A DNA stretch of 64,000 bases, taken from the NCBI RefSeq assembly GCF_027922005.1, contig NZ_BSEV01000002.1:62001-126000 (forward strand), read 5' to 3'. Position 1 is the stretch's first letter; each line of letters opens with the position of its first letter. The translations under genes were made by a program, and so were the position numbers. Under the pieces are notes generated by a model. It saw only the letters and a program-made list of their open reading frames with translations. It was not told where the DNA came from and ran no database searches. The stretch is from Streptosporangium carneum. Lineage in GTDB: Bacteria; Actinomycetota; Actinomycetes; Streptosporangiales; Streptosporangiaceae. Below, piece by piece: positions 12,262-59,221 of the stretch.

Positions 12262-13425
12262 TCAACTTCCGATCGCGTACGAGTGGCGCGGCTGCCAGGA
12301 CAGCCAGACGGCCTCGCCGCGCTCGGCCGTGCTCGTGCTGTCAAGCGCGTTCTGCTGAAAGACGGTGATCTCCGCGCCGTCGGCGAGGCGCACCGCGTAG
12401 CTGTTGTAGAGGCCCAGGTAGACGACCTCGGAGACGGTGCCGCGCACCGCGCTGACCTCGCCCCCCGGCTCCTCGGCGGAAATCGTGATCTTCTCGGGGC
12501 GCACGGTCACCGTGACGTCGTCTCCGGCCCTGTGCGCGTCTCCCGCCACCAGGATCCGGCCCTCGTCGCCCGCCCGAAGCACGGCGCAGCCGGAGGCGAC
12601 CCGGTCGACGGTCCCGCCGAGCAGGTTGGAGGTGCCGATGAACCCGGCCACGAACGCGGTCGCGGGGCGTTCGTAGATCTCGCGGGGCGCGGCGAGCTGT
12701 TCGACCAGGCCGTCGTTCATGACGGCGATGCGGTCGCTCATGGTGAGCGCCTCGCTCTGGTCGTGGGTGACGTAGACGAAGGTGATGCCGACCTCGCGCT
12801 GGATCCGCTTGAGCTCGATCTGCATGGCCTGGCGGAGCTTGAGGTCGAGGGCGCCGAGCGGCTCGTCCAGCAGGAGCGCGCGGGGGTTGTTGACCAGGGC
12901 GCGGGCCAGGGCGACCCGCTGCTGCTGGCCGCCGGACATCTCCCTGGGGCGGCGCTTCTCGCGGCCTGTGAGGTCCACGATCTCCAGCATCTCGCCGACG
13001 CGGCGCTTGATCTCGGCCGCGGCCACCTTCTTGCGTCTGAGGCCGAAGGCGACGTTCTCCCAGACGTTCATGTGCGGGAACAGCGCGTAGGACTGGAAGA
13101 CCATGTTCACGTCGCGCTTGTTGGGGGGGACGTCGGTGACGTCCTGGCCGTGCAGCCGCACCGTGCCCCGCGACGGGTCCTCGAAACCGGCGATCATGCG
13201 CATGGTGGTCGTCTTGCCGCAGCCGGAGGGCCCGAGGAGCGAGAAGAACTCGCCCTCGGAGATGGTCATCGTGATCCCCTTGACCGCCTGGACGACCTCG
13301 CCGTGGGCGAGATACTCCTTGACGACTCCGGCGAGTTCGATGGCGGGCACCGGGGGTGAGTCGGGGGCGGGGGCAGTGGCCGCCGCCCCCGCCGCTCCTT
13401 CTGTGCCCGCCTGGATTTCGGTCAT
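12262..13425 (-). CDS. potA: polyamine ABC transporter ATPase PotA-like
   Basis: A 387-residue ATPase. Walker A is GPSGCGKT (residues 65-72), the signature is [15 protein letters not shown], Walker B is ALLLDEPLGALD, and the H-loop is VTHDQSEAL. After about residue 260 comes a TOBE domain of normal length, in contrast to the second PotA-like protein at the right edge. The first 28 residues are an Ala/Pro-rich extension. It lies 25 bp after the aldehyde dehydrogenase gene and heads the pot genes. Confidence 0.93.
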   Translation of the reverse strand: MTEIQAGTEGAAGAAATAPAPDSPPVPAIELAGVVKEYLAHGEVVQAVKGITMTISEGEFFSLLGPSGCGKTTTMRMIAGFEDPSRGTVRLHGQDVTDVPPNKRDVNMVFQSYALFPHMNVWENVAFGLRRKKVAAAEIKRRVGEMLEIVDLTGREKRRPREMSGGQQQRVALARALVNNPRALLLDEPLGALDLKLRQAMQIELKRIQREVGITFVYVTHDQSEALTMSDRIAVMNDGLVEQLAAPREIYERPATAFVAGFIGTSNLLGGTVDRVASGCAVLRAGDEGRILVAGDAHRAGDDVTVTVRPEKITISAEEPGGEVSAVRGTVSEVVYLGLYNSYAVRLADGAEITVFQQNALDSTSTAERGEAVWLSWQPRHSYAIGS

Positions 13426-45706: not shown

Positions 45707-48700
45707 TCATCGGTCCTCTTTTCCTTCAACGTCCCGGCCGAAGTCGGGATACGGCTGCCCGTCGCCGACTTCGCCTCGCACCACCGCGCGGCCCTGCCGT
45801 ACTCCCTGCTGGAAGCTCGACAGACGGCTGCGCACCGCTTCCGGGGAGATCGCGGGTCTGAACATGGAGGGCTGGGAGGCCGTCGGGTCGGGCGCGGCCG
45901 TGCCGGGCACGAGGTTCGCCTTCGGCACGCGCTTCGGCAGCCCGGAGCCGGTCATCCCGCCGAGTGTGGGTTCGCTCGCCGCCCGTGCCGCCTGCCAGCC
46001 GACGTCCGCGGGCGAGGACCAGATGTCGGGGGCCGGGGTCGCCGGGGGCGTGTCGTCGACGCCGGGCTCGCCCTGTCCCTCCTGGGCCGGGGCGGCGGGG
46101 TCGACCTTCCTGAACCAGTCGGACTCGACGGCGGCGAAGATCGGCAGGAACTCCTCCTTCGCCTCCTCCATGAGCGAGGACTCGGGGACGACAGGCAGCG
46201 GGCCCGTGCTGTCCGCGGCGTCGAACGCGCGGCTGTCGAAGGGGCCGTTCCCGAGCGGGGGCGGCCACACTCCCGAGTCGCCGGCGGGCGCGCTCGGCCA
46301 GATCCCCGAGTCGCCGTCGCGGGCGGGCATGCTCGTCCAGACCCCGGAGTCGCCGCCGCGCACGGGGGCGTCGGGCCACACGCCGGTGTTCATCTGGTTC
46401 GTCTGGGAGGAGTTCGGCCAGTCGGCCGAGTCTCCGCCGCGGACGGGAAGACCGGGCCACACGCCGGTGTCCGCCTGGGAGGAGGTGGTCGACCAGCTGG
46501 GGCTGCCGCCCTGCGGCGGCACGTGGGCGGCGGGCCAGGAGCCGTCGACCGGCGGCCGGCCGTCACCGGGGGCGTGCCGCGTCTCGAAGGAGGCGAACTG
46601 CTGCCTCAGGTCGAAGGCGTTGAAGGCCTGCTGGGCGGCCTCGAAGGAGGCGAACGCGGCCTGCGCGGGGTCGAGCGAGGTGGGGCTGGCCAGCACGGGC
46701 GGCCGGTCCGTCGCGGCCCGGTCCTCCGGGCCCATGGTCGCCGCCCAGTCGCCGCCGCCCTGGGTGACGGGCGCCTGGCGGGAGTCCGCCGCGGAGAGCA
46801 GGTTCTCCGGGATCAGGACCATGGCGGTCAGGCCGCCGCTGTCCTGCTGCCTGAGCTGCACACGGATACCGTGCCGCAGGGCGAGGCGGCCGACCACGAA
46901 CAGGCCCATTCTGCGGGACACCGACACGTCGACCACCGGCGGGTTGGCCAGCCGCCAGTTCGCCTGCGTGAGCTCGTCGGCGGTCATGCCGATGCCGACG
47001 TCGGTGACCGAGACCATCACGCCGCCGCCGTCGATGCGGTTGCTGGACACGAGGACCTTCGTCTCCTTCGGAGAGAAGGAGATCGCGTTCTCCACGAGCT
47101 CGGCGATGAGGTGCACGACGTCGTTGACGGAGGTGCCGACCACGGACACGCCCGCGGACAGCTGCAGGGTGACCCGTTCGTAGTTCTCGACCTCGGACAG
47201 CGAGGCGCGGACCACGTCGATGATCGGGATGGGCTGGCTCCACCGGCGCGCGGGCTCCTGCCCGGCGAGGACCAGGAGGTTCTCGCTGTTGCGGCGCATG
47301 CGGGTGGCGAGGTGGTCGAGACGGAACAGGTTGCCGAGCCGGTGCTCGTCCTGCTCGCCCTGCTCCAGGCTCTCGATCAGCGAGAGCTGGCGTTCCACCA
47401 GGGTCTGGCTGCGCCTGGAGAGGTTGACGAACATCGCGTTGACGTTGCTCCGCAGCCGGGCCTCGTCGCCGGCGAGGCGGATGGCCTCGCGGTGGACCTC
47501 GTCGAAGGCGCGCGCGACCTCGCCGATCTCGTCGTCGGAGTTGACGCCGATGGGCAGCACCTCGGCCGTCTCCGCGTCCCCGCTCTCCCGCAGGGCCTGG
47601 ACGGTTTCCGGCAGACGCTGTCCCGCGATGGACAGCGCCTCGGTGCGGAGCCTGCGCAGCGGCCTGACCAGCGAGCGCGCCATGATCGTGGTGATGATCA
47701 GGACCAGGACGAGCAGCAGGGCGCTCGCCACCGCGGCGAACAGCGCTCCACGCTGCTCGCCCTCCTGGAGCGTACGGCTCTGCGTGATGACCTCGTCGGA
47801 GATCGTTTTCTCCACCGTGCGCATCTTGTCGATGATGACGGTCGAGGCGTCGAACCACTGGGTCTGGTCGCCCGCGCCGGTGTTGGCGGCGTTGACGCCG
47901 ACCAGGGGGGCGTGGGCCGTGGCCAGGACGAGCGCCCTGAGGCGGATGAACTCCGCGCGGTCGATCTTCTGGCCGCTGACGGTGTCGTCGTAGAACTGGC
48001 GCTGCTCCAGCGAGGCCTCTCCTCTGAAGGCGGCGAGCTCGCTGTCGCGCTGCGCGCGGGCGACGATGAAGTCGTCCAGGCCCTGGGTGGTGAACTGCCT
48101 GTTGGCCAGTGCGACGGCGAGTTCCGCCCGCTCCCTGGAGGCCTGTTCCTTGGCCCTGGCCAGAGCCGCGAACGCGGCCGCGCCGGAGCTGAGGCTCTGG
48201 TCCGCGTCGACCTGGACGATCTTTCCGTGGAGCGCCAGAAGGTCGCTGATCGCCTGTGAGTACGTCTGGATGACGGGCTGCGCGGGCAGCGAGCTGCTGA
48301 CGACGGCCTTGCGCACGGTGGCGAGCTCGTCGAGGCGGGTGCTCATCTGCGCGATGCTCTCCCGCTCGCGGGTGGCGAAGGCGCCCTCCACGGCGTCGCG
48401 GAGCCGGCCGCGCACGTCCACGGCGATCCTGTCGACGACGCCGTACTGCTCGTCCAGCTTGGTGCGGGCGCCTCTGGGGCGTCCCTGGGCGACGAACCTG
48501 GCGGCGAGGTCACGCTCCAACTGCAGGCCGTGCACCAGCCCGCTCAGACTGGAGGAGAGCTCCGCGGTCACGCGGACCTGTTCGTACTGCGCGGCGCTGG
48601 TGACGGAGGTGGCCACGCGGAACCCGCCGAGGACGACGGCAGCGGTGGTGGGAATGACGATGAGCGCGATCAGCCGTGACCGCACCCGCCAGTTCCTGAA

Positions 48701-48841
48701 GGCGAACCTGCTGCCGTTTCTCCCGGTTTTCTCCTGATCGGCGGTCTGGGGCGGACCGCCTTCCCGCGTCTCGGAATCGCCGAAGACCTGGGCAGCCACC
48801 AGCCCGGATTCACGTTCGCTGGGGATTGACGCTGTCCTCAC
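45707..48841 (-). CDS. conservon sensor histidine kinase (CvnA type), copy 1
   Basis: A 1044-residue membrane kinase. TM1 is at about 57-79, an extracytoplasmic NIT-like sensor helix bundle at 80-365, TM2 at 366-388, HAMP from 389, a DHp-like helix with His510 (FRLDHLATRMRRNSENLL), and the HATPase (N-box ELVENAISFSP, G1 TDVGIGM, G2 RRMGLFVVGRL) to about 680. A 300-residue disordered region with repeated GVWP and PVRGGDS motifs follows. The last 70 residues contain LPKRVPKANLVPG and RSRLSSFQQGVRQGR, shared with copy 2. GTG start follows GGAGG. Confidence 0.93.
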   Translation of the reverse strand: MRTASIPSERESGLVAAQVFGDSETREGGPPQTADQEKTGRNGSRFAFRNWRVRSRLIALIVIPTTAAVVLGGFRVATSVTSAAQYEQVRVTAELSSSLSGLVHGLQLERDLAARFVAQGRPRGARTKLDEQYGVVDRIAVDVRGRLRDAVEGAFATRERESIAQMSTRLDELATVRKAVVSSSLPAQPVIQTYSQAISDLLALHGKIVQVDADQSLSSGAAAFAALARAKEQASRERAELAVALANRQFTTQGLDDFIVARAQRDSELAAFRGEASLEQRQFYDDTVSGQKIDRAEFIRLRALVLATAHAPLVGVNAANTGAGDQTQWFDASTVIIDKMRTVEKTISDEVITQSRTLQEGEQRGALFAAVASALLLVLVLIITTIMARSLVRPLRRLRTEALSIAGQRLPETVQALRESGDAETAEVLPIGVNSDDEIGEVARAFDEVHREAIRLAGDEARLRSNVNAMFVNLSRRSQTLVERQLSLIESLEQGEQDEHRLGNLFRLDHLATRMRRNSENLLVLAGQEPARRWSQPIPIIDVVRASLSEVENYERVTLQLSAGVSVVGTSVNDVVHLIAELVENAISFSPKETKVLVSSNRIDGGGVMVSVTDVGIGMTADELTQANWRLANPPVVDVSVSRRMGLFVVGRLALRHGIRVQLRQQDSGGLTAMVLIPENLLSAADSRQAPVTQGGGDWAATMGPEDRAATDRPPVLASPTSLDPAQAAFASFEAAQQAFNAFDLRQQFASFETRHAPGDGRPPVDGSWPAAHVPPQGGSPSWSTTSSQADTGVWPGLPVRGGDSADWPNSSQTNQMNTGVWPDAPVRGGDSGVWTSMPARDGDSGIWPSAPAGDSGVWPPPLGNGPFDSRAFDAADSTGPLPVVPESSLMEEAKEEFLPIFAAVESDWFRKVDPAAPAQEGQGEPGVDDTPPATPAPDIWSSPADVGWQAARAASEPTLGGMTGSGLPKRVPKANLVPGTAAPDPTASQPSMFRPAISPEAVRSRLSSFQQGVRQGRAVVRGEVGDGQPYPDFGRDVEGKEDR

Positions 48842-49352: not shown

Positions 49353-49403
49353 ATGAGGTTCGGTCCCACGAGCCGGACGGCCCCCCGGGGGCCAGTCGGA
49401 TGA
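49353..49403 (+). CDS. 16-codon leader ORF coupled to the permease gene
   Basis: ATG 49353 has an excellent TAAGGAG site 5-6 bp upstream. Sixteen codons (MRFGPTSRTAPRGPVG) end in TGA overlapping the permease ATG as ATGA. The permease has no strong site of its own. The start ATGAGGTTC and its preceding GGAG are like the start of the lipoprotein gene at 52443 (ATGAGGTTCCGTCC), so the leader could be a remnant of a second copy of that gene's 5' end. Confidence 0.5.
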   Translation: MRFGPTSRTAPRGPVG

Positions 49404-50191
49404 CCAGGCAGGCCGTGCTCGGCAACAGAGTGCTCTGCGGCGCCCTCGGCGTCGCGGGACTGCTGCTCGTCATGGAGGCGGCCGGCAGGGCGGAGCTCGT
49501 CGACCCGACCGTCCTCCCCCTGACCTCGACGATCCTGACCCGGGTCGCCGAACTCGCCGTCGACGAGGAGTTCCTCGTCAACGTGGGAGCCACCATGACC
49601 GCCTGGGGGCTCGGCCTCCTGCTCACGGTGGCCGTCACGGTCCCCCTCGGACTGCTGCTCGGCAGCCTGCCCAGGCTGGAGACGGCGGTGCGGCCGCTGA
49701 TCGAGTTCCTGCGCCCGATCCCCTCCGTCGCCCTCATCCCGCTGGCGATCCTGATCTTCCCCGACCGGCTCGACCTCAAGATCGCCGTTATCTTCTACGC
49801 CTCCTGCTGGCCCGTTCTGATCAACACCATGTACGGCCTGCAGGACGTCGACCCGGTGGCCAAGGAGACGCTGCGCAGCTTCGGCTTCGGGCCGCTGGCC
49901 GTACTGTGGCGGGTCTCACTGCCCAGCACCGCGCCCTTCATCGCCACCGGAGTACGGCTCGCGGGCGGCATCGCCCTCATCCTGGCCATCAGCGCCGAGC
50001 TGCTCGCGGGCGGCTCGGACGGCATCGGCGCCTACGTCATCAAGGCGGGAAGCAGCCCGGACGGCCTGGAGTTCATCATCGCCGCGACCATGTGGGCCGG
50101 AATCCTGGGCGTCGTCACCAACAGCCTGTTCATCGGGGCCGAACGGCGGCTGTTCCGCTGGCACACCGCCCGCGCGGGGGTGACCGGGTGA
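49400..50191 (+). CDS. ABC transporter permease, nitrate/sulfonate/taurine type (1)
   Basis: A 263-residue permease with six membrane segments and an EAA loop (DVDPVAKETLRSFGFGPLAV, then WRVSLPSTAP). PLIEFLRPIPSVALIPLAIL is the BPD signature of the SsuC/TauC/NrtB family. It begins the importer operon after a coupled leader and overlaps the second permease by 4 bp (GTGA). Two different permeases imply a heterodimeric channel. Confidence 0.9.
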   Translation: MTRQAVLGNRVLCGALGVAGLLLVMEAAGRAELVDPTVLPLTSTILTRVAELAVDEEFLVNVGATMTAWGLGLLLTVAVTVPLGLLLGSLPRLETAVRPLIEFLRPIPSVALIPLAILIFPDRLDLKIAVIFYASCWPVLINTMYGLQDVDPVAKETLRSFGFGPLAVLWRVSLPSTAPFIATGVRLAGGIALILAISAELLAGGSDGIGAYVIKAGSSPDGLEFIIAATMWAGILGVVTNSLFIGAERRLFRWHTARAGVTG

Positions 50192-51045
50192 AACACTCCG
50201 CCCCCGCTTCCCCCAAGAGCTCCGGGACGTCCCCGGGAGGCTCCCCCTCAGGTCTGCGCGGCGTCGCGCGCGCCGTCTCCCGCCTGTGGCTGGTCCCCGT
50301 CGCGCTGGTGCTGTGGGAGATCGGGACCCGCGCCGCGGACACCCCTTATTTCCCCTCGCCGACGACGATCGCGGTCAAGATGCGGGAGATGTGGCTCAAC
50401 GGCCCCGCGAGCCGCCTGTGGCTGAGCGATCTCGCACTCGAGAACTTCCCGCCCAGCCTGGCCCGGCTGTTCGCGGGATGGGCCCTCGCCGGGGTCGCCG
50501 GGATCGTGCTCGGCGTCATGCTCGGCCGCTCGGTGCTCCTGGCGCGCTTCGTCGACCCGCTCGTCCATTTCGGCAGGGCGATTCCGCCGCCGATGCTTCT
50601 GCCGCTCCTCATCCCGCTGATGAGCATCGGCACGCAGATGCAGCTGACCACGATCGTGTTCGGCGTCATCTGGCCCGTGCTGCTCAACACCGTCGACGGC
50701 GCCCGTTACGTCGACCGCCAGCACATGGAGACCGCGCGGGTCTTCGGGCTGTCGTGGGGACAGCGACTGTGGCGGGTCATCCTCCCCTCCTCGACGCCGA
50801 AGATCTTCGCGGGCCTGCGGCTCAGCCTGTCCCTGGCCCTGATCCTCATGGTCATCTCCGAGCTGGTCGGCAGCACGAACGGGATCGGCTTCCAGCTCCG
50901 CGCCGCGGAGCGCGCTTTCGACCCGCCGGCCCTGTGGGGGGCCATCGTGGTGCTCGGCCTCCTCGGATACGTGCTGAACCTGGCCTTCTTCGCGATCGAG
51001 CGGCGGGTCCTGTCCTGGCACCGCGCCGCCAAGCAGACAACCTGA
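50188..51045 (+). CDS. ABC transporter permease, nitrate/sulfonate/taurine type (2)
   Basis: A 285-residue permease from GTG 50188. After a Ser/Pro-rich cytoplasmic start come six membrane segments, with GRAIPPPMLLPLLIPLMSIG and the EAA loop HMETARVFGLSWGQRLWRVI. It pairs with the preceding permease. The ATPase gene follows 9 bp downstream. Confidence 0.9.
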   Translation: MKHSAPASPKSSGTSPGGSPSGLRGVARAVSRLWLVPVALVLWEIGTRAADTPYFPSPTTIAVKMREMWLNGPASRLWLSDLALENFPPSLARLFAGWALAGVAGIVLGVMLGRSVLLARFVDPLVHFGRAIPPPMLLPLLIPLMSIGTQMQLTTIVFGVIWPVLLNTVDGARYVDRQHMETARVFGLSWGQRLWRVILPSSTPKIFAGLRLSLSLALILMVISELVGSTNGIGFQLRAAERAFDPPALWGAIVVLGLLGYVLNLAFFAIERRVLSWHRAAKQTT

Positions 51046-51054
51046 GGACCTGCT

Positions 51055-51837
51055 GTGCTTGAGATCTCCAACCTGACCCATACCTACGGCAGCGGACCGT
51101 CCGCCCACAACGCGCTGGGCGGCATCGACCTGAACGTCTCCGAGGGCGAGCTGGTGTGCATCGTCGGCCCTTCCGGGTGCGGCAAGTCCACGCTGCTGCG
51201 CTCCATCGCGGGGCTGCTGCGCCCGACCGGCGGCCAGGTCGTGCTCAACGGCGCCCCCGTGGCGCAGACGCCCGACGACCTGGCCGTCGTCTTCCAGGAC
51301 TACAGCCGCTCGCTGTTTCCCTGGATGTCGGTCGCCGACAACATCTCCCTGCCGCTGCGACGCAAGGGCGAGGGGAGAAAGCAGCGGGCACGCTCCGCCA
51401 TGGAGGCGCTGGAGCAGGTCGGCCTGGCGGGCGCGGCGGACAAGTATCCCTGGGAGCTGTCCGGCGGCATGCAGCAGCGGGTCTCCATCGCGCGCGCCCT
51501 GGCCTACCGTCCCGCCCTGATGCTCATGGACGAGCCGTTCGGCTCCGTCGACGCCCAGACCCGCGAGGACCTGGAGGATCTGACGCTGCGGGTCCGCGGC
51601 CACCACAACATGACCATCCTGCTCATCACCCACGACATCGACGAAAGCGTGTACGTCGGCGACCGCGTCGTCGTGCTGTCGAAGGCCCCGGCGAGGATCG
51701 TCGGCGACCTGCGGGTCGACCTTCCCGGCCCCCGCGACCAGATCAACACGCGGGAGCACCCCGACTTCGTGCGCCTGCGCGCGGAGGTCGGCCGTCTGGT
51801 GCGCGGCATGCGGACCTCTCCGGCCTCCGCCTCCTGA
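51055..51837 (+). CDS. ABC transporter ATPase (SsuB/TauB type)
   Basis: A 260-residue ATPase. Walker A GPSGCGKS (38-45), Q-loop VFQDYSRSLFPW, signature LSGGMQQRVSIARAL, Walker B LMLMDEPFGSVD and H-loop ITHDIDES. The QDYSRSLFPW form is typical of the aliphatic sulfonate/taurine subfamily. It is followed by a strong intrinsic terminator, so the binding-protein and nitrilase genes need their own promoter. Confidence 0.93.
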   Translation: MLEISNLTHTYGSGPSAHNALGGIDLNVSEGELVCIVGPSGCGKSTLLRSIAGLLRPTGGQVVLNGAPVAQTPDDLAVVFQDYSRSLFPWMSVADNISLPLRRKGEGRKQRARSAMEALEQVGLAGAADKYPWELSGGMQQRVSIARALAYRPALMLMDEPFGSVDAQTREDLEDLTLRVRGHHNMTILLITHDIDESVYVGDRVVVLSKAPARIVGDLRVDLPGPRDQINTREHPDFVRLRAEVGRLVRGMRTSPASAS

Positions 51838-52442
51838 GGCCGCCGTCCCGAACCAGGACGCCGGGCGCGAGCTCCTCGCCCCCGGCGTCCTTTTTTGAAC
51901 CCCGCTTCAAAGCGGCACGGGACCGGCACGGCGGCTCTCCCGGCCGCTGACATGGGGTCACGGGCTCGTGAGGTCCGGCGCCCGGCCGTTCCCCTGAAGC
52001 GTTTCCTAAAATGGTTACAAACCTTCCAATAAACGGTCGCGCCGCTCACCGTTCAGCAGGGCGTTCCATGTCAGCCTGTATGGGCCCAAATGAAAAGCGT
52101 CTCGCCGTCACGGAAGCCTCGCATCTCATTTCGGTGACCCGAAACCATCCGAATACCCGATCACACCACCTTCTCAGGGCGAATCCGGAGTGCCCGAAAT
52201 CGGCACTCACTCCCCACACACCCCTCAATTCCGTCAATGCAACACATTGACAAACCGATAAAGCTAGTGCAACGCCATCAAAACATGCCATACAAGGACA
52301 TTAATTATGGACTGTCGCTAAACCCGACATTAAGGGTTGCTGCCGGATTTGAGAGCATCTACGATCGCTCCTTGATCTCTTCTCCCCGATTCCGGGACGT
52401 GCAAGCCATGTCGAAATCCCCCACCTCTCCGAGGAGCCACAT
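51838..52442. other. 605-bp AT-richer spacer before lipoprotein gene
   Basis: It starts with a terminator, then from about 52000 to 52400 has clearly lower GC than the rest of the window and holds the promoter of the binding-protein gene. CCATGTCG and CCGAGGAG near its right end recur upstream of the leader ORF at 49353. I see no gene. Confidence 0.6.
51856..51896 (+). terminator. intrinsic terminator after ABC ATPase
   Basis: GGACGCCGGG pairs with CCCGGCGTCC across a 15-base loop, followed directly by six T residues. It is a textbook rho-independent terminator for the permease-ATPase transcript. Confidence 0.92.
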
Positions 52443-53426
52443 ATGAGGTTCCGTCCATTAGCGCGCGTCTGCCTCGTCGTCGCCGCGCTCTCGGTTCTCG
52501 CCACCGCCTGCAACAGTGGAAAGGCCGCGACCAGTGCCGCGGCGAACGGTCTTGAGAAGACCGACCTCACCATCGGCATGCTGCCGCTGCCCGAAGTGGC
52601 GCCGGTGCAGATCGCCATCAAGCGGGGCTTCTTCAAGGCGGAGGGCCTGAACGTCAAGTTCACCATCATCGACGGAGGCGGCAGCGCGCTCCCCTCGCTG
52701 CTGAGCGGCGGCTTCGACGTGCTGCACAGCAACTACGTCTCCGCCTTCACCGCGGCCTCCCAGAAGGTCGCCGACCTGAAGGTCGTCGCCGAGGCCACCG
52801 TGGCGACCCCCGGCAGCTTCGTCCTGGTGACGGCGCCCAACTCGAACGTCACCAAGGTCGAGGACCTGAAGGGCAAGACGATCGGCGTCAACACCAAGCG
52901 CAACGTCGCGATGCTGACCACCAGCGTGACCCTGAAGGTACACGGTCTGGACCTCGACCGCGACAAGATTGAATTCGCCGAGATCCCGTTCCCCAACATG
53001 TGGCAGGCCCTCAAGACGGGACAGGTCGCCGCGGCCTTCCTGCCCGAGCCGTTCGTCAGCGCCGCCGCCGCCGACGGCGGGGTGAAGGTCACCGACCTCA
53101 TGGCCGGGCCGACCGACAGCTTCCCGATCGCGGGCTACTTCGTCACCGCCGACTTCGCGAGCAAGAACCCGAAGACGGTCGCCGCCTTCCAGCGGGCCCT
53201 GCTGAAGGCGCAGTCGGTCGCCGCGAGCGACCGCAAGGCGGTGGCCGAGGTCCTCCCCCTGTACACCAAGATCAACGCCCAGACAGCGGAGATCATGCAG
53301 CTCCCCGGCTATCCGATCACGACGAACGCCGTGCGACTGCAGCGGGTCTCCGACCTCATGTCCGAGTACGGCTATCTGCAGAAGCCGTTCAACGTCAACT
53401 CACTCTTGCTGGCAGGACAGAAGTGA
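52443..53426 (+). CDS. ABC transporter substrate-binding lipoprotein (NMT1/SsuA-like)
   Basis: A 327-residue lipoprotein with a lipobox LATAC (Cys23) after a basic, hydrophobic signal. The mature domain has LTIGMLPLPEVAPVQIAIKR, GFFKAEGLNVKFTIIDGG and DLKGKTIGVNT, typical of the SsuA/TauA/THI5-like group that binds sulfonates, nitrate, thiamine precursors or similar small molecules. GGAG precedes the ATG. Its stop overlaps the nitrilase-like gene start (GTGA). It should feed the two permeases upstream. Confidence 0.9.
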   Translation: MRFRPLARVCLVVAALSVLATACNSGKAATSAAANGLEKTDLTIGMLPLPEVAPVQIAIKRGFFKAEGLNVKFTIIDGGGSALPSLLSGGFDVLHSNYVSAFTAASQKVADLKVVAEATVATPGSFVLVTAPNSNVTKVEDLKGKTIGVNTKRNVAMLTTSVTLKVHGLDLDRDKIEFAEIPFPNMWQALKTGQVAAAFLPEPFVSAAAADGGVKVTDLMAGPTDSFPIAGYFVTADFASKNPKTVAAFQRALLKAQSVAASDRKAVAEVLPLYTKINAQTAEIMQLPGYPITTNAVRLQRVSDLMSEYGYLQKPFNVNSLLLAGQK

Positions 53427-54490
53427 TCGATGCCTACCAGGCGGTCGGCCTGGTTCCCACCATGCGCGGCGTCCGCAACCGGGACGAGATCCAGACGAAC
53501 CTCGAGCACATCGAGCACCTGGTCAAGGCGGCCTCCTGGCTGTCCAGCCTCGACCTTCCCGTGCGCCTGATCGCGATTCCCGAGGGCGCGCTCCAGGGGT
53601 TCAACGACGAGGTGCTCGACATCGACCACGAGGACTTCGCCCGGGAGTGCGCGATCGAGGTCCCCGGTCCGGAGACCGACAGGCTCGGCGCGCTGGCCCG
53701 GCAGTGGGACACCTACATCATCGCCCAGGCCAAGGCCCTCCACCCGGAGTTCCCCGGGCGCTTCTTCAACGTCGGCCTGGTGATCGACCCCGAGGGCGAG
53801 ATCGTTCTCACCCACTACAAGACGGTCCCGCTGCTTCCCGTCGAGCACTCGGTGACCCCGCACGACGTCTGGGACCGCTGGGTCGAGCTGTACGGCAAGA
53901 CCCTCGAGGCCTTCTACCCCGTCGCCGACACCGCGATCGGCAGGATCGGCATCCTCATGGCCAACGAGGCGTCGTATCCCGAGAACGCCCGCGGCCTCGC
54001 GATGAACGGCGCCGAGATCATCTACCGGGGCCCCTACCCGCACCCGCACGTCGGCAACGGGCTGTACGCGATCCAGAACCAGGCCAGGGCGCTGGACAAC
54101 AACTGCTACCTGATCGCGTGCAACGTCGGGACCTACTACCTGTCCGCCGAGTCCGACATCCCGATCGACACCTTCGGCGGCCACTCGATGGTCGTGGACT
54201 ACAAGGGCCAGATCGTCGGACGTCACGACTACGGCGGCGCGTCCTCCTGGGTGTCCGGCACGATCGACATCGAGGCGCTGCGCCGGTTCCGCGCCAACGC
54301 GCAGTGGGACAACTGGATCAAGGACCTCAAGACCGAGCAGTACCAGCTCATCTACGACAAGCCGATCTACCCGAAGAACCTCTACCTCGACCGCAAGCCG
54401 TACAACCACGCGGAGTTCCGCGCCGAGGTCATCGACAAGCAGATCGAGCTGATGCACGAACGCGGCATCTGGGTCCGCCCCGAGAAGTAG
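53423..54490 (+). CDS. nitrilase-superfamily protein lacking the catalytic cysteine
   Basis: A 355-residue carbon-nitrogen hydrolase fold protein. The triad Glu (Glu54, AIPEGAL) and Lys (Lys133, THYKTVPL) are in place. In the cysteine motif the sequence is IGILMANEASYPENARG, so Ala180 occupies the position of the Cys in the family pattern G-hh-C-Y-D/E--FPE. NNCYLIACNVG later is the usual downstream strand. GTG 53423 overlaps the lipoprotein stop by 4 bp. Such a protein would not hydrolyse nitriles or amides by the normal route; it might bind a ligand or use other chemistry. Confidence 0.85.
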   Translation: MIDAYQAVGLVPTMRGVRNRDEIQTNLEHIEHLVKAASWLSSLDLPVRLIAIPEGALQGFNDEVLDIDHEDFARECAIEVPGPETDRLGALARQWDTYIIAQAKALHPEFPGRFFNVGLVIDPEGEIVLTHYKTVPLLPVEHSVTPHDVWDRWVELYGKTLEAFYPVADTAIGRIGILMANEASYPENARGLAMNGAEIIYRGPYPHPHVGNGLYAIQNQARALDNNCYLIACNVGTYYLSAESDIPIDTFGGHSMVVDYKGQIVGRHDYGGASSWVSGTIDIEALRRFRANAQWDNWIKDLKTEQYQLIYDKPIYPKNLYLDRKPYNHAEFRAEVIDKQIELMHERGIWVRPEK

Positions 54491-54501
54491 CACCGGAAGA
54501 A

Positions 54502-54566
54502 CCGGGCCGGCTCGCCGGTGAAGCCGGCCCGGTGTGGGGCCCACCCTCGGGTGGGTCCCACACCGG
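54502..54566. terminator. paired overlapping hairpins, bidirectional terminator
   Basis: Hairpin 1 is CCGGGCCGGC with GCCGGCCCGG (54502-54532). Hairpin 2 is CCGGTGTGGG with CCCACACCGG plus an inner CCCACCC/GGGTGGG (54529-54566). They share bases 54529-54532, so only one can form fully. They separate the convergent nitrilase-like and GTPase genes. Confidence 0.8.
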
Positions 54567-54577
54567 GACACGACGGG

Positions 54578-55144
54578 TCAGACGCGCAGCGTGAGGACGT
54601 GCTCGACCAGGGTGATCAGGGTCGACTTCACGGCGTCACGCGAACGGGCGTCGGTCCGGACGACGGGGATGTGCGGGGAGATCGTCAGAGCTTCCCGCAC
54701 CTCCTCCTCGGCGTGGATGTGCGTGCCGCCGAAGCCGTTGAGCGCCACGACGAACGGCAGTCCGGCCTCCTCGAAGTAGTCGATCGCCGGGAAGCTGTCG
54801 GCCAGCCGCCGGGTGTCGACCAGCACGATCGCACCGATCGCGCCCTTCACGAGGTCGTCCCACATGAACCAGAACCGGTGCTGACCCGGCGTACCGAACA
54901 GGTACAGGATCAGGTCCCGGTCCAGCGAGACACGGCCGAAGTCCATGGCCACCGTGGTGGTCCGCTTGGTCGGGATGTGCGAGAGGTCGTCCACCTCCGC
55001 ACTGGCCTCCGTCATCACCGCTTCCGTGGTCAGCGGCATGATCTCGGAGACCGCGCCGACGAAGGTCGTCTTGCCGACACCGAATCCTCCGGCGACAACG
55101 ATCTTCGTTGACGTCATACCGGCGTCAGAGCCTGCGAAGCCCAC
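54578..55144 (-). CDS. conservon GTPase (CvnD type), copy 2
   Basis: A 188-residue Ras-like GTPase closely similar to the one at 44190-44783: GGFGVGKTTFVGAVSEI, TTTVAMDFGRVSLDRDLILY, LFGTPGQHRFWFMWDDLV. The NGFG segment replaces NKxD. I use GTG 55144, which gives the same 20-bp overlap with DUF742 as copy 1; ATG 55117 would be a shorter alternative. It likely cycles with the roadblock and DUF742 partners encoded just upstream. Confidence 0.92.
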   Translation of the reverse strand: MGFAGSDAGMTSTKIVVAGGFGVGKTTFVGAVSEIMPLTTEAVMTEASAEVDDLSHIPTKRTTTVAMDFGRVSLDRDLILYLFGTPGQHRFWFMWDDLVKGAIGAIVLVDTRRLADSFPAIDYFEEAGLPFVVALNGFGGTHIHAEEEVREALTISPHIPVVRTDARSRDAVKSTLITLVEHVLTLRV

Positions 55145-55535
55145 TGAGCACCCTTTCAAGCAAGTTGAGATCCGGCTTTCCGGTTCCGGCATCCAGCGAC
55201 GGCTGGTGGATCTGCACCAGGCCCTCGGCCGCCATGTCCGCGATCAGCACCCGGGTCACGCCCAACGGCATGCGCAACAGGGCAGAGAGCTCGGCGACCG
55301 AGCGTACCTGCTGGGACAACGAGATGATCGCCTGGTACTCCGTGGAGAGCGTGGAGGTGTCCACGCTCACGAACGTCGCCGAGGAGACCAGCGCCTCGAG
55401 CGCGAGCTGCATCCTGGGAGCTGTTCTTCCCCCGGTCACAGCGTACGGACGAATCAGACGATTACGTCCGCTCTTGGCCTGAGGCGTGCTGCCAGGGGGT
55501 TCCTCCCCCTGACCACGCCAACCTGGTGCGTCCAT
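55125..55535 (-). CDS. conservon DUF742 protein (CvnC type), copy 2
   Basis: A 136-residue DUF742 protein: LIRPYAVTGGRTAPRMQLAL, SLSQQVRSVAELSALLRMPL, TRVLIADMAAEGLVQIHQ. The last 15 residues (PDLNLLERVLSGLRRL) are identical with copy 1. GGGAGGTGAT precedes ATG 55535. Confidence 0.93.
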   Translation of the reverse strand: MDAPGWRGQGEEPPGSTPQAKSGRNRLIRPYAVTGGRTAPRMQLALEALVSSATFVSVDTSTLSTEYQAIISLSQQVRSVAELSALLRMPLGVTRVLIADMAAEGLVQIHQPSLDAGTGKPDLNLLERVLSGLRRL

Positions 55536-55544
55536 ATCACCTCC

Positions 55545-55967
55545 CTATCGCTGGGCCGACTGCAACTCTGCGCGCAGCGCAGGCGTGAGCGCCTGTCCCG
55601 CGCGCTCAGCCAGCATGGTCATCTGGTAGGCCACCAGGCCCATGTCACAGTCCGGTGAGGCCAGTACGGCCAGCGCGGAGCCGTCGCTGATCGACATCGT
55701 CAGCAGGAGACCCCGCTGCATCTCGATCACGGTCTGGGCGACGGGGCCGCCCTCGAAGACCCGGGAGGCTCCCTGGGTGAGACTGATCAGACCGGCCGTG
55801 ATCGCGGCGAGCTGGTCGGCGCGGTCCTTCGGGAAGCCCTGCGAGTAGGCCAACGGAAGGCCGTCCGCGGAGACGATCACCGCGTGGGCCACGCCGGGCA
55901 TCTCCTTGACGAACTCGGTGATCAGCCAATTGAAGCCGCGGGCGGCCTGACTGAGTTGGTGGTTCAC
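55545..55967 (-). CDS. conservon roadblock/LC7 protein (CvnB type), copy 2
   Basis: A 140-residue roadblock/LC7 protein nearly colinear with copy 1 (GVAHAVIVSADGLPLAYS, MSISDGSALAVLASPDCDMG). Its GTG start overlaps the kinase stop by four bases (GTGA), tighter than the 37-bp gap in copy 1. Confidence 0.93.
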   Translation of the reverse strand: MNHQLSQAARGFNWLITEFVKEMPGVAHAVIVSADGLPLAYSQGFPKDRADQLAAITAGLISLTQGASRVFEGGPVAQTVIEMQRGLLLTMSISDGSALAVLASPDCDMGLVAYQMTMLAERAGQALTPALRAELQSAQR

Positions 55968-58900
55968 TGGTTCTCTCCCTCAGCGGCGTTCAACCGCTCG
56001 TTCATCTCAGCGCGGCCCTGCCGAATGCCTTGCTGGAAACTGGACAGACGACTGCGCACCCGCTCCGCCGAGATCGGAGGCAGCGGGGCAGCCGGAGCGG
56101 CCGGCGCCGAGGCGGCGGCTCCGGGGACGAGGTTGGCCTTGGGCACCCGCTTGGGCAGGCCCGCCCCGGTCACGCCGCCCTCGACCGGCTTCTTGGCGAC
56201 CTCGGCGGCGGCCCAGCCCTGGTCGGCCGGGGTGCTCCACGGCTGCCTCTCGACGGCGGGCGGTCCCTGCCGTCCCGGACGCCGGATGGGCAGCACCGGC
56301 GGGTCGTCGTGAAGCGGGTCCTCGAGCAGGCCGGGCCCGCTCGTCGGCTCCTCGACCTCCGGCTCGGGCTCGACCTCGGGTTCGGCCACGAGCTCGGCGG
56401 AGGCGCTGCTGCGGAACCAGTCGGACCCGACCGCCGCGAAGATCGGCAGGAACTCCTCCGGCTCCGGCTCCGTCGGCGAGACCTCGACCGCGGGCAGGGC
56501 CTGGGTGTTGTCCGGGGCCTCGTGCCGCTGCGGCGCCCACGGGTCGACCGGCGGCATCTCCGGCCAGGACGGCGCGGACGACGGCTGCGCGGTCGACCTC
56601 GGCGGCCCGGCCGGGAACGACGGCTCCGCCGGGTAGGACGGCTGCGCCGCGGGGAAGGAAGGCTGCGCCGGGAACGACGGCTCGGCCGGGAACGAGGGCT
56701 GCGCCGCCGGGAACGGCGGCTGGCCCAGGAAGGACGTCTCCGCCGGGAAGGACCTGTCGGACTGGAAGGACCTGTCGGACTGGAACGACCTCTCCGCCGG
56801 GAACGACGGCTGGGCGGTCGGGAACGACGGGTCTCCGACGGGGAACGACGGATGCTCGGCGGGGAACGACGGCGGCGCGGTCGGCGTCAGGGGCGAGGAC
56901 CACAGGTCCTCGACCGCGGAGGCGGAGACCACCGGCGTCGACCACAGGTCCGCCACGGACGGGGTCGAGGGCTGCGGCGGCACCGGTGCGCCCGGCCCCC
57001 CGGGCGACCGGGTGGGAAGCCCGTTGGAGGCGCCGTGCGAGGGGCCGCTCCCGAACGGGTTCGGGCTCGGCGTCGCGCTGAACGGGTCGTGCTCGGGCAG
57101 GACGGAGGGGGCGTTCTGCCCCGCCATGGCCAGCTGGGGCATGAGCGGCGACTGGGCGACCACCTGCACGGGAAGCAGAACGACGGCGCTCAGGCCGCCG
57201 GTGTCGGGACGGCGGAGCTGGACCCTGATGCCGTGGCGCATGGCCAGCCGGCCGACCACGAACAGGCCCATTCGGCGGGAGACCGACAGGTCGACCGCGG
57301 GAGGCTCGGCCAGACGCCGGTTGGCCTCGGCGAGTTCCTCGTCGCTCATGCCGATGCCCGAGTCGGTGACCGCCAGGATGATGGCGCCCGTCTCGTTGGC
57401 GTTGCTGCTCACCATGATCTTGGTGTCCTGCGGCGAGAAGAAGATGGCGTTCTCGACGAGCTCCGCGATCAGGTGGACGATGTCGTTGACGGCCGAGCCG
57501 ACGATCAGGGTGCCCGACTCGACCCGCAGACCCACGCGCTCGTAGTTCTCGACCTCGGACAGCGAGGCGCGGACGACGTCGCTCAGCGGGACCGGCTCAC
57601 TCCACCTGCGGCTCTGCTCCTGACCCGCGAGGACCAGGAGGTTCTCGGAGTTACGGCGCATGCGGGTGGCCAGGTGGTCCAGCTTGAAGAGGCTGGCCAG
57701 CCGGGAGTCGTCCTGCTCGCCCTGCTCCAGGTCGTCGATGAGGTCGATCTGCCGTTCCACGAGCGACTGGGTGCGCCGGGAGAGGTTGACGAACATCGCG
57801 TTGACGTTGTTCCGCAGTTTGGCCTCGTCGCCCGCCAGGCGGATGGCCTCGCGGTGGACCTCGTCGAAGGCCCGGGCGACTTCTCCGATCTCGTCGCGGG
57901 CGGCCACGTCGATGGGGGCCACCTCCACGTTCGGTTCGGCCTCCGTGGACTCCCGCAGCACGCGGACGGTCTCGGGCAGCCGGGTGCTGGCCACCTCGAG
58001 CGCCTCGCTCCGCAGGCTGCGCAGCGGGCGGACCAGCGTTCCCGCCACCCAGGCGGTGACCAGCAGGATGATGATCAACAGAACGAGGATCGTGGCACCG
58101 GTGATGATGGCGCTGCGCTCTTCCGCGGCCTGCAGTTCCTGGCTGCGGGAGACGACCGAGGCGGCCAGGCTTCGCTCGACGGCGTTCATGCCGTCCACGA
58201 GAGCCGAGGCGGCGTCGTACCAGGCGTTCATGCCCATCTCCCTGGGCAGGCCCAGGTTCTCACGCATCCGCGACATGACCAGGGCTCGCAGGGAGTCGGC
58301 CTTGGCGATCTTCGGGTCGGTGAGCACGTCGCTCAGGCGCTTGGCGTCGGCCGGCGCCGCCGTCGCCTGGAAGGTGGCCTGCTCGCTGAGCTGGCTCTTG
58401 TAGGCGCCGAGGAAGTCGGCGGGGTCGTCGAAGTCGAAACGTCCCTCGATCCGGGCGACGAGGAGGATGCCTCGCTGCCTGGCGACCTGTTCCCTGGCCT
58501 GGGTGAGCGCGCCGAGCGCGAGGACGTCACCGATCAGCCGCTCGTCGCGGGCGCTTCGGCCGAGGTCGTCGTGCAGGGTGAGGAAGTCGTCGATCATACG
58601 CGAGTACACGCCGAGGGCCGCTCGCGGAAGCACGTCGCCGCTGGTGAGGGATTTCCGGAGGCTGAACAGGCCGTTCAGCCAGTTGCGGACCTGCGCGACC
58701 TCCGCGACGATGCGGGGGTCCTGGTCGTCGCCCAGCGCGTCGATCGCGGTGAGCACGTTCGTACGGGTCAGGTCGACCCGGCCCTGCAGGTCCTTGACCC
58801 TGGACAGTCGCGCGGGCCTGCGTCTGTCGGCGATGTACCAGGCGGTGAGGTCCCGTTCGTCCGCCAGCTCGTAGGAGATGGTGGTGAGCTGGTCGACGAG

Positions 58901-59095
58901 CGCTGCGACCTCGGCCGTCTGGCGATACTCCGTGGCGTTGTTCAGGGAGCTGTTGAGCTGGAGTCCACTCAGCACCACCGCCGCGGCCGTGGGGAGCAGG
59001 ATCAGCGCGACCAGTCGGGGACGCACGCGCCAGTTCGAGGGCAGGAATCGACTGCCCACCGCTGACACACGGTGGTTGCGGCGGTCTTGTGTCAT
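55964..59095 (-). CDS. conservon sensor histidine kinase (CvnA type), copy 2
   Basis: A 1043-residue kinase with the same plan as copy 1: TM1 near 28-47, NIT-like sensor region, TM2 and HAMP, DHp-like FKLDHLATRMRRNSENLL, HATPase with ELVENAIFFSPQ, TDSGIGM and RRMGLFVVGRLA. A linker of about 300 residues then carries a PSFPAE-type array (over a dozen units, 56600-56880). The C-terminus repeats LPKRVPKANLVPG and RSRLSSFQQGIRQGR. Start is ATG 59095 or GTG 59098. Confidence 0.93.
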   Translation of the reverse strand: MTQDRRNHRVSAVGSRFLPSNWRVRPRLVALILLPTAAAVVLSGLQLNSSLNNATEYRQTAEVAALVDQLTTISYELADERDLTAWYIADRRRPARLSRVKDLQGRVDLTRTNVLTAIDALGDDQDPRIVAEVAQVRNWLNGLFSLRKSLTSGDVLPRAALGVYSRMIDDFLTLHDDLGRSARDERLIGDVLALGALTQAREQVARQRGILLVARIEGRFDFDDPADFLGAYKSQLSEQATFQATAAPADAKRLSDVLTDPKIAKADSLRALVMSRMRENLGLPREMGMNAWYDAASALVDGMNAVERSLAASVVSRSQELQAAEERSAIITGATILVLLIIILLVTAWVAGTLVRPLRSLRSEALEVASTRLPETVRVLRESTEAEPNVEVAPIDVAARDEIGEVARAFDEVHREAIRLAGDEAKLRNNVNAMFVNLSRRTQSLVERQIDLIDDLEQGEQDDSRLASLFKLDHLATRMRRNSENLLVLAGQEQSRRWSEPVPLSDVVRASLSEVENYERVGLRVESGTLIVGSAVNDIVHLIAELVENAIFFSPQDTKIMVSSNANETGAIILAVTDSGIGMSDEELAEANRRLAEPPAVDLSVSRRMGLFVVGRLAMRHGIRVQLRRPDTGGLSAVVLLPVQVVAQSPLMPQLAMAGQNAPSVLPEHDPFSATPSPNPFGSGPSHGASNGLPTRSPGGPGAPVPPQPSTPSVADLWSTPVVSASAVEDLWSSPLTPTAPPSFPAEHPSFPVGDPSFPTAQPSFPAERSFQSDRSFQSDRSFPAETSFLGQPPFPAAQPSFPAEPSFPAQPSFPAAQPSYPAEPSFPAGPPRSTAQPSSAPSWPEMPPVDPWAPQRHEAPDNTQALPAVEVSPTEPEPEEFLPIFAAVGSDWFRSSASAELVAEPEVEPEPEVEEPTSGPGLLEDPLHDDPPVLPIRRPGRQGPPAVERQPWSTPADQGWAAAEVAKKPVEGGVTGAGLPKRVPKANLVPGAAASAPAAPAAPLPPISAERVRSRLSSFQQGIRQGRAEMNERLNAAEGENQ

Positions 59096-59221
59096 CACTG
59101 GCCTACGTAACCCCTCGCCGGTTTTGGATACGGCGGTAGCAATTTGAGCACATCCTTTATGTCACTTCGAATGGAGTGTGTGCCGACAAATCCCCCCAAA
59201 AGGGATATTTGACAACAAAAC

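Follow-up and report, generated by a model that had tools for sequence, protein, structure and literature searches.

An old and conserved clade of nitrilase-fold proteins with alanine in place of the catalytic cysteine

The nitrilase superfamily works through its Cys, and the chemistry of the family is covalent, with a thioester acyl-enzyme; an enzyme of this fold that functions in its absence is not known to us. The closest described proteins are the aliphatic amidases and formamidases of the AmiE and AmiF type (2plq, 2uxy, 2dyu, 5g3o). The same replacement as the one described below, Cys to Ala, is present in engineered nitrilase-fold mutants in the PDB (1uf4, 6ypa, 5ny7, 8hpc, compared here by title), of which 6ypa (C146A with glutaramide), 8hpc (C171A with N-carbamoyl-D-hydroxyphenylglycine) and 5ny7 (C145A with nicotinamide) are ligand-bound according to their titles. 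A narrow search of the open-access literature returned no description of a nucleophile-free nitrilase clade and no characterised hydrolytic homologue lacking this Cys; the latter had been named in advance as a finding that would overturn an Ala180 reading, but its absence from so narrow a search carries little weight.

Unlike those laboratory-made mutants, the protein analyzed here has a natural and conserved Ala. Its gene lies in the window, a stretch of 64,000 nucleotides from Streptosporangium carneum (Table 1). The first-pass annotation had described a full-length gene with Glu54 and Lys133 intact and Ala180 at the position of the catalytic Cys, and all of this was confirmed: the translation had no internal stop, the codon was read as GCC, and the phmmer alignments placed A180 against the Cys and K133 against the Lys of the aliphatic amidases 2uxy and 2plq and the formamidase 5g3o. 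Glu141, which we take to be the fourth active-site residue with a role as in AmiE and AmiF, was also intact. The protein belongs to the CN_hydrolase fold, as indicated by its match to PF00795 (7.7e-30, Pfam) and an amidase-like alpha-beta-beta-alpha sandwich in the predicted structure, but it lacks the complete Glu-Lys-Cys triad of the working hydrolases of the superfamily. All three of these enzymes share Glu-Lys-Glu and the 8-residue Lys-Glu spacing with it (phmmer alignments), but the identity to AmiE and AmiF was 22-24% and the scores against the NCBIfam equivalogs for aliphatic amidase and formamidase were far under the cut-offs (55 against 427 and 52.2 against 406 bits), so neither name can be assigned.

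Table 1. Positions of the Ala180 gene, its active-site codons and the neighboring genes in the window
Feature	Position	Strand	Basis or remark
Left-flank histidine kinase of the conservon type, carrying a NIT sensor domain	45707..48841	-	Domain scan; sole left-flank gene scanned
ABC transporter permease 1	49400..50191	+	Pfam/NCBIfam
ABC transporter permease 2	50188..51045	+	Start inferred from L003 homologue; open frame begins 49906
ABC transporter ATPase, NrtCD/TauB-like	51055..51837	+	Pfam/NCBIfam
SsuA/TauA (NMT1_2) type substrate-binding lipoprotein (SBP) gene	52443..53426	+	Pfam/NCBIfam
Nitrilase-fold protein gene, 355 aa, Glu54-Lys133-Glu141 and Ala180	53423..54490	+	ORF, Pfam, phmmer, AlphaFold
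Codons 133-141, Lys-to-Glu loop, exceeding that of nearly all Cys relatives by 1 residue	53819..53845	+	Row spacing counts
Codon 180, GCC (Ala) at the catalytic Cys of the family	53960..53962	+	Codon read
Conservon, right flank: ATP_bind_1, DUF742, Robl_LC7, NIT-domain histidine kinase	54578..59098	-	Domain scan

The predicted structure was in agreement with retention of the amidase fold. In the AlphaFold2 model, built on 38 alignment rows (mean pLDDT 92.6, pTM 0.92), residue 180 starts a helix after strand 173-178, and the weakest block is the Lys-Glu loop at residues 131-140 (pLDDT 75). The best Foldseek matches of the model were formamidases and amidases. VIA-align superposed it over most of the chain on AmiE and AmiF with Z of 32.6-33.7, including 2plq (Z 33.7, 289 residues, rmsd 2.4) and 2dyu (Z 33.1, 285 residues, rmsd 2.5).

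The Ala gene is located at the end of a TauA/SsuA-type import cluster, downstream of two permease genes, the ATPase gene and the SBP gene, and the SBP stop TGA (53424-53426) overlaps its GTG start (53423) as GTGA; both the location and the coupling had been proposed from the sequence and were found as proposed. The SBP scored 95.7 bits against TIGR01728, under the cut-off of 163.5, and is thus family-like rather than an assigned sulfonate binder. A region of 605 bp without an assigned gene separates the ATPase and SBP genes, and a scan of 51800-54700 for promoters and terminators found nothing. The further claim of a position between two conservons held on the right, where the domains listed in Table 1 were matched, and on the left it extends to one NIT-domain kinase, the sole gene scanned there. 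NIT nitrate/nitrite-sensing kinases bracket the importer and the Ala gene in the window, and the copy at locus L003 has kinases from the same cluster on both sides, that at L005 on one side.

Relatives were collected by a scan of one genome per species, which gave 54 loci, and by genome and plasmid searches that added more; fragments under 200 or 150 residues (depending on the analysis) and copies identical over the core were left out. Among the resulting 123 non-redundant rows, the residues at positions 54, 133, 141 and 180 were EKEA in 58, -KEA in 3 (truncated), EKEC in 45, EKGC in 2, -KGC in 1, ---C in 1, EKEG in 4 and ER-S in 8, and 1 row ended before position 180. Ala180 was common to the 60 sequences of one clade, window included; the Acidobacteria-labelled MAG locus L053, which also has Ala, was counted apart. 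On the 96-row tree, 45 Ala rows formed one branch with support 100/99, and the Gly and Ser groups and L053 were separate from it. For control trees, residues 128-145 and 174-190 were cut from the alignment. In that of 122 rows, the Ala group (60) needed two changes, the long-branched Flammeovirga sequence L092 being pulled to another long branch; after removal of five rows (L092, L174, L053, L054, L079), 58 Ala rows were split from all other rows by a branch whose SH-aLRT of 81 falls short of the 95 threshold.

The members of the branch came from Actinomycetota, Chloroflexota, Pseudomonadota, Dormibacterota, Methylomirabilota and a Bacteroidota-labelled MAG, and others were carried on a Flammeovirga plasmid, haloarchaeal plasmids and a Tsukamurella plasmid. 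The labels of MAGs may be wrong, and horizontal transfer is likely. The clade also matters for annotation, since all four members examined in plasmid records (L087, L088, L092, L094) were named 'nitrilase-related carbon-nitrogen hydrolase'. The clade is patchy, as judged from the genome counts: Ala copies were present in 21 of the 250 genomes searched in Streptosporangiaceae, the window's family, and in 19 of 301 Chloroflexota genomes (one further match stops short of site 180), and any match was present in 3 of 398 Pseudomonadota genomes (one with Ala, which was the chosen centre), 3 of 396 genomes of the phylum Actinomycetota (two Ala, one Cys) and 6 of 394 of the class Actinomycetes, where Ala was found in the window's own genome only.

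When residue 180 was listed across the relatives, as the first-pass annotation had proposed, K133, E141 and A180 were present in 60/60 clade rows and E54 in 57/57 rows reaching that position, with 60 positions invariant over the 60 rows. Since every clade row has Ala, and since S. carneum has four further CN_hydrolase genes that all show Cys at the motif, Ala180 is more than a chance substitution. The Cys comparison used the 47 rows with Glu, Lys and Cys, which were thus chosen for Cys at column 180: of the 40 positions at least 95% fixed in them, 33 were still at least 95% the same in the Ala clade, six (88, 148, 176, 183, 197, 286) kept their commonest residue at 67-93%, and position 180 was the only one replaced. 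A clade that extends over several phyla, has lost only Cys among the fixed positions, keeps the others under strong selection and mostly has no Cys paralogue offers a clean natural experiment on the capabilities of Glu-Lys-Glu by itself. The Cys-bearing sister group, with up to 59% identity over the full length and nearly all conserved positions alike, differs in Cys180, in the loop (Lys-Glu spacing of 7 in 43 of 45 EKEC rows against 8 in 60 of 61 Ala rows, L053 having 7) and in its own neighbors (UbiD, AMP ligase, CMD and a StyA-type monooxygenase). Positions typical of the clade, compared with 32 hand-picked Cys rows, include L129, L137, V140, M179, N188, H207, N227 and G279. The survey of Cys against the same 32 rows found no invariant substitute in the Ala clade (C76 in 33/44, C233 in 23/45, C228 in 5/45); a shifted nucleophile, which would have overturned the reading of Ala180, was therefore rejected.

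Selection on the Ala proteins was strong and purifying, with dN/dS of 0.018-0.150 in ten Ala pairs (Nei-Gojobori script); two Cys pairs gave 0.015 and 0.079 (a third was saturated) and two Gly pairs 0.021 and 0.039. A sequencing error or a fresh mutation was rejected on the basis of these values, the 45-row branch and the fixation of Ala. The Ala180 group is thus an old, conserved and nucleophile-free clade with the remaining site intact. In a distant group with Ser180 (L055, L056, L058, L082-L086; 6 of the 8 from the window's family), all 8 rows had Arg for Lys and no residue aligned with Glu141, from which it follows that the fold alone does not force retention of Lys and Glu141. A second loss was observed in gammaproteobacteria (L040:10001-11056 and 12308-13369, also L041, L042 and L052), with Gly at the nucleophile position and E-K-E kept, a UbiD-type decarboxylase gene just upstream and a convergent Cys copy near. 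L053:5935-6990 combines Ala180 with a long branch, a UbiD-cluster gene nearby and the shorter loop, and is a probable independent Cys-to-Ala replacement.

Gene calls in the relatives came from our own scorers and names from Pfam, NCBIfam or the records, or else from clustering with a named gene. Upstream DNA of 1500 bases or more was available for 48 Ala rows, and in 4 of these (window, L003, L005, L008) the gene immediately upstream encodes a window-type SBP, the flanks of the other 12 of the 60 being shorter and outside this count; in Streptosporangium and two Nonomuraea the start of the Ala gene overlaps a TauA/SsuA-type binding-protein gene at its end. The whole importer was present at L003, and no ATPase was matched in the L005 and L008 clusters. 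In Chloroflexota L159, a co-directional run encodes an ATPase, an SsuA-like SBP (TIGR01728 at 7e-19, below cut-off; about 6 kb upstream of the Ala copy), a permease, an amidohydrolase, a PaaK-like ligase, an enoyl-CoA hydratase, a Cys copy, a DUF1275 fragment and the Ala copy. The proposed link to an importer thus holds for the window, L003, L005 and L008, with a related importer at L159, but not as a conserved partnership across the clade. Cys copies in Variovorax (L046) precede genes for an NMT1-type SBP, an ATPase and a permease.

The other neighboring genes are catabolic and of diverse kinds. In 8 loci a CoxL-type Mo-hydroxylase gene was found no more than 300 bp from the Ala gene, divergent at L079, L099, L108 and L110 (window's family) and convergent at L165, L166, L169 and L170 (Chloroflexota), and farther away at L014 and L020. 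Because the S. carneum genome has about 5 genes with a CoxL-type domain (six matched stretches), the probability of such adjacency by chance is small, although the eight loci are not independent. An aldehyde dehydrogenase gene adjoins L017, L018, L019, L022, L101 and L106, an ApbA reductase gene lies behind L103, L104, L105 and L109, and a Cyclase gene adjoins L087; aminotransferase, enoyl-CoA hydratase and PaaK-like ligase genes were also found. Many Ala loci have no CoxL, aldehyde dehydrogenase, ApbA, OxdA-like or Cyclase neighbor.

Because relatives from soil bacteria to haloarchaea retain this loss in an active site that is otherwise whole, the Ala180 clade probably has a function other than ordinary amide cutting. 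The first-pass annotation had suggested a repurposed, non-hydrolytic or ligand-binding protein, perhaps a sensor or a chaperone; the loss of the nucleophile from an otherwise preserved pocket agrees with the former part, and the sensor or chaperone role found no direct support, CN_hydrolase being the only domain matched and no signalling or DNA-binding domain being found in the protein. The strict retention of Glu-Lys-Glu fits kept chemistry or a kept ligand pose at least as well. We tentatively favor a nucleophile-free, aliphatic-amidase-like offshoot whose Glu-Lys-Glu pocket would accommodate a small compound, either imported or catabolic, with non-covalent catalysis likelier than binding alone. 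The Ala180 protein would not form the thioester acyl-enzyme; instead, a small molecule resembling an amide, acid, imine or nitrile (for the window protein, presumably the one brought in by the importer) would enter the pocket and undergo non-covalent acid-base conversion with Glu54 as base and Lys133 and Glu141 polarising, candidate reactions being hydration or dehydration, tautomerisation and imine hydrolysis, and the product may pass to oxidoreductases and CoA enzymes similar to those whose genes lie close to the relatives. Catalysis is preferred because Glu54 is invariant, a Cys paralogue is absent from nearly all genomes examined and many neighbors are enzymes, and because the Ser180 group shows that the fold tolerates the loss of Lys and Glu141. 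However, the neighborhoods are too varied for one pathway, the ligand-bound Cys-to-Ala mutants favor binding, and support for a single branch drops without the motif columns. The fuller proposal, that the clade consists of active enzymes whose Glu-Lys-Glu acid-base site carries out a new reaction, with catabolites of nitrogen-containing or aldehyde/imine type as substrates, in bacteria and archaea, is possible but more doubtful.

The main rival, close to the first-pass view, is a natural substrate trap: the protein would bind the compound, imported or catabolic, in the amidase pocket without any chemistry and serve in the cytosol as a buffer, a chaperone or part of a sensor. The ligand-bound mutants of the same fold (6ypa, 8hpc, 5ny7; titles) speak for it, as do the four loci in which the Ala gene overlaps one for a binding protein, and E-K-E may be retained to hold a carboxamide; but the absence of a signalling or DNA-binding match, the usual lack of a Cys paralogue, the metabolic genes adjoining many loci, the invariance of the presumed general base Glu54 and the rarity of a directly upstream window-type SBP make it the somewhat less likely reading. 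It is still less probable that the proteins remain hydrolases in which a Glu54-activated water or another residue replaces Cys. Glu54, Lys133 and Glu141 are kept, Ser184 (55/60) and Tyr185 (59/60) are frequent, and amidohydrolase and M20-type hydrolase genes adjoin some Cys relatives, but Ser184 and Tyr185 are not clade-specific (18/47 and 33/47 in Cys rows), there is no new invariant Cys and the chemistry of the family is covalent. A non-catalytic subunit hetero-oligomeric with a Cys-bearing paralogue is very improbable: Ala and Cys copies are close together in L020 and L159, and Gly and Cys copies are convergent in L040-L042 and L052, but three sets of Ala genomes yielded a single genome each with a Cys paralogue of the family, namely G658 among 18 (E<=1e-20), G737 among 19 (1e-60) and G087 among 21 (1e-25), sets that overlap (four genomes in the first two, one species probably in the first and third). 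The window's genome has no second member of the subfamily, and G657 has a second 62% copy whose residue at site 180 lies outside this survey. Fixed partnership with a Cys paralogue is thus unlikely, and an obligate partner was disfavored as a candidate. The loss of the key residue and two disrupted relatives (L022 with an internal stop, L029 with a split match) would suit a recently inactivated, drifting gene, which is hardly credible given the low dN/dS, the 60 invariant positions over 60 rows and the several phyla.

Operons of the aldoxime-nitrile pathway pair an aldoxime dehydratase with a nitrilase (reviewed in PMC8955678). L020 resembles them: L020:9715-13159 contains the Ala copy, a gene for an OxdA-like haem aldoxime dehydratase (PF13816, 1e-65), the Cys copy and then a three-subunit Mo-hydroxylase. 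However, an OxdA-like gene was seen in this locus only, its score of 205.5 is below the NCBIfam cut-off of 600, and none was found among the scanned window genes. Two pathways were considered, indole or aldoxime metabolism (OxdA-like L020, Cyclase L087, TrpB-like L018, StyA-like L032 and L046) and, from the genes near L101, L106 and L103 for aminobutyraldehyde dehydrogenase, aminotransferase and PotC-like permease, polyamine metabolism. Both were rejected since neither accounts for the majority of loci, and naming a substrate from the neighbors was given up with contexts this varied. StyA-type (styrene monooxygenase-like) genes were observed near Cys copies at L032:2032-3612 and L046:16342-19332, two of the three being fused to a flavin reductase domain.
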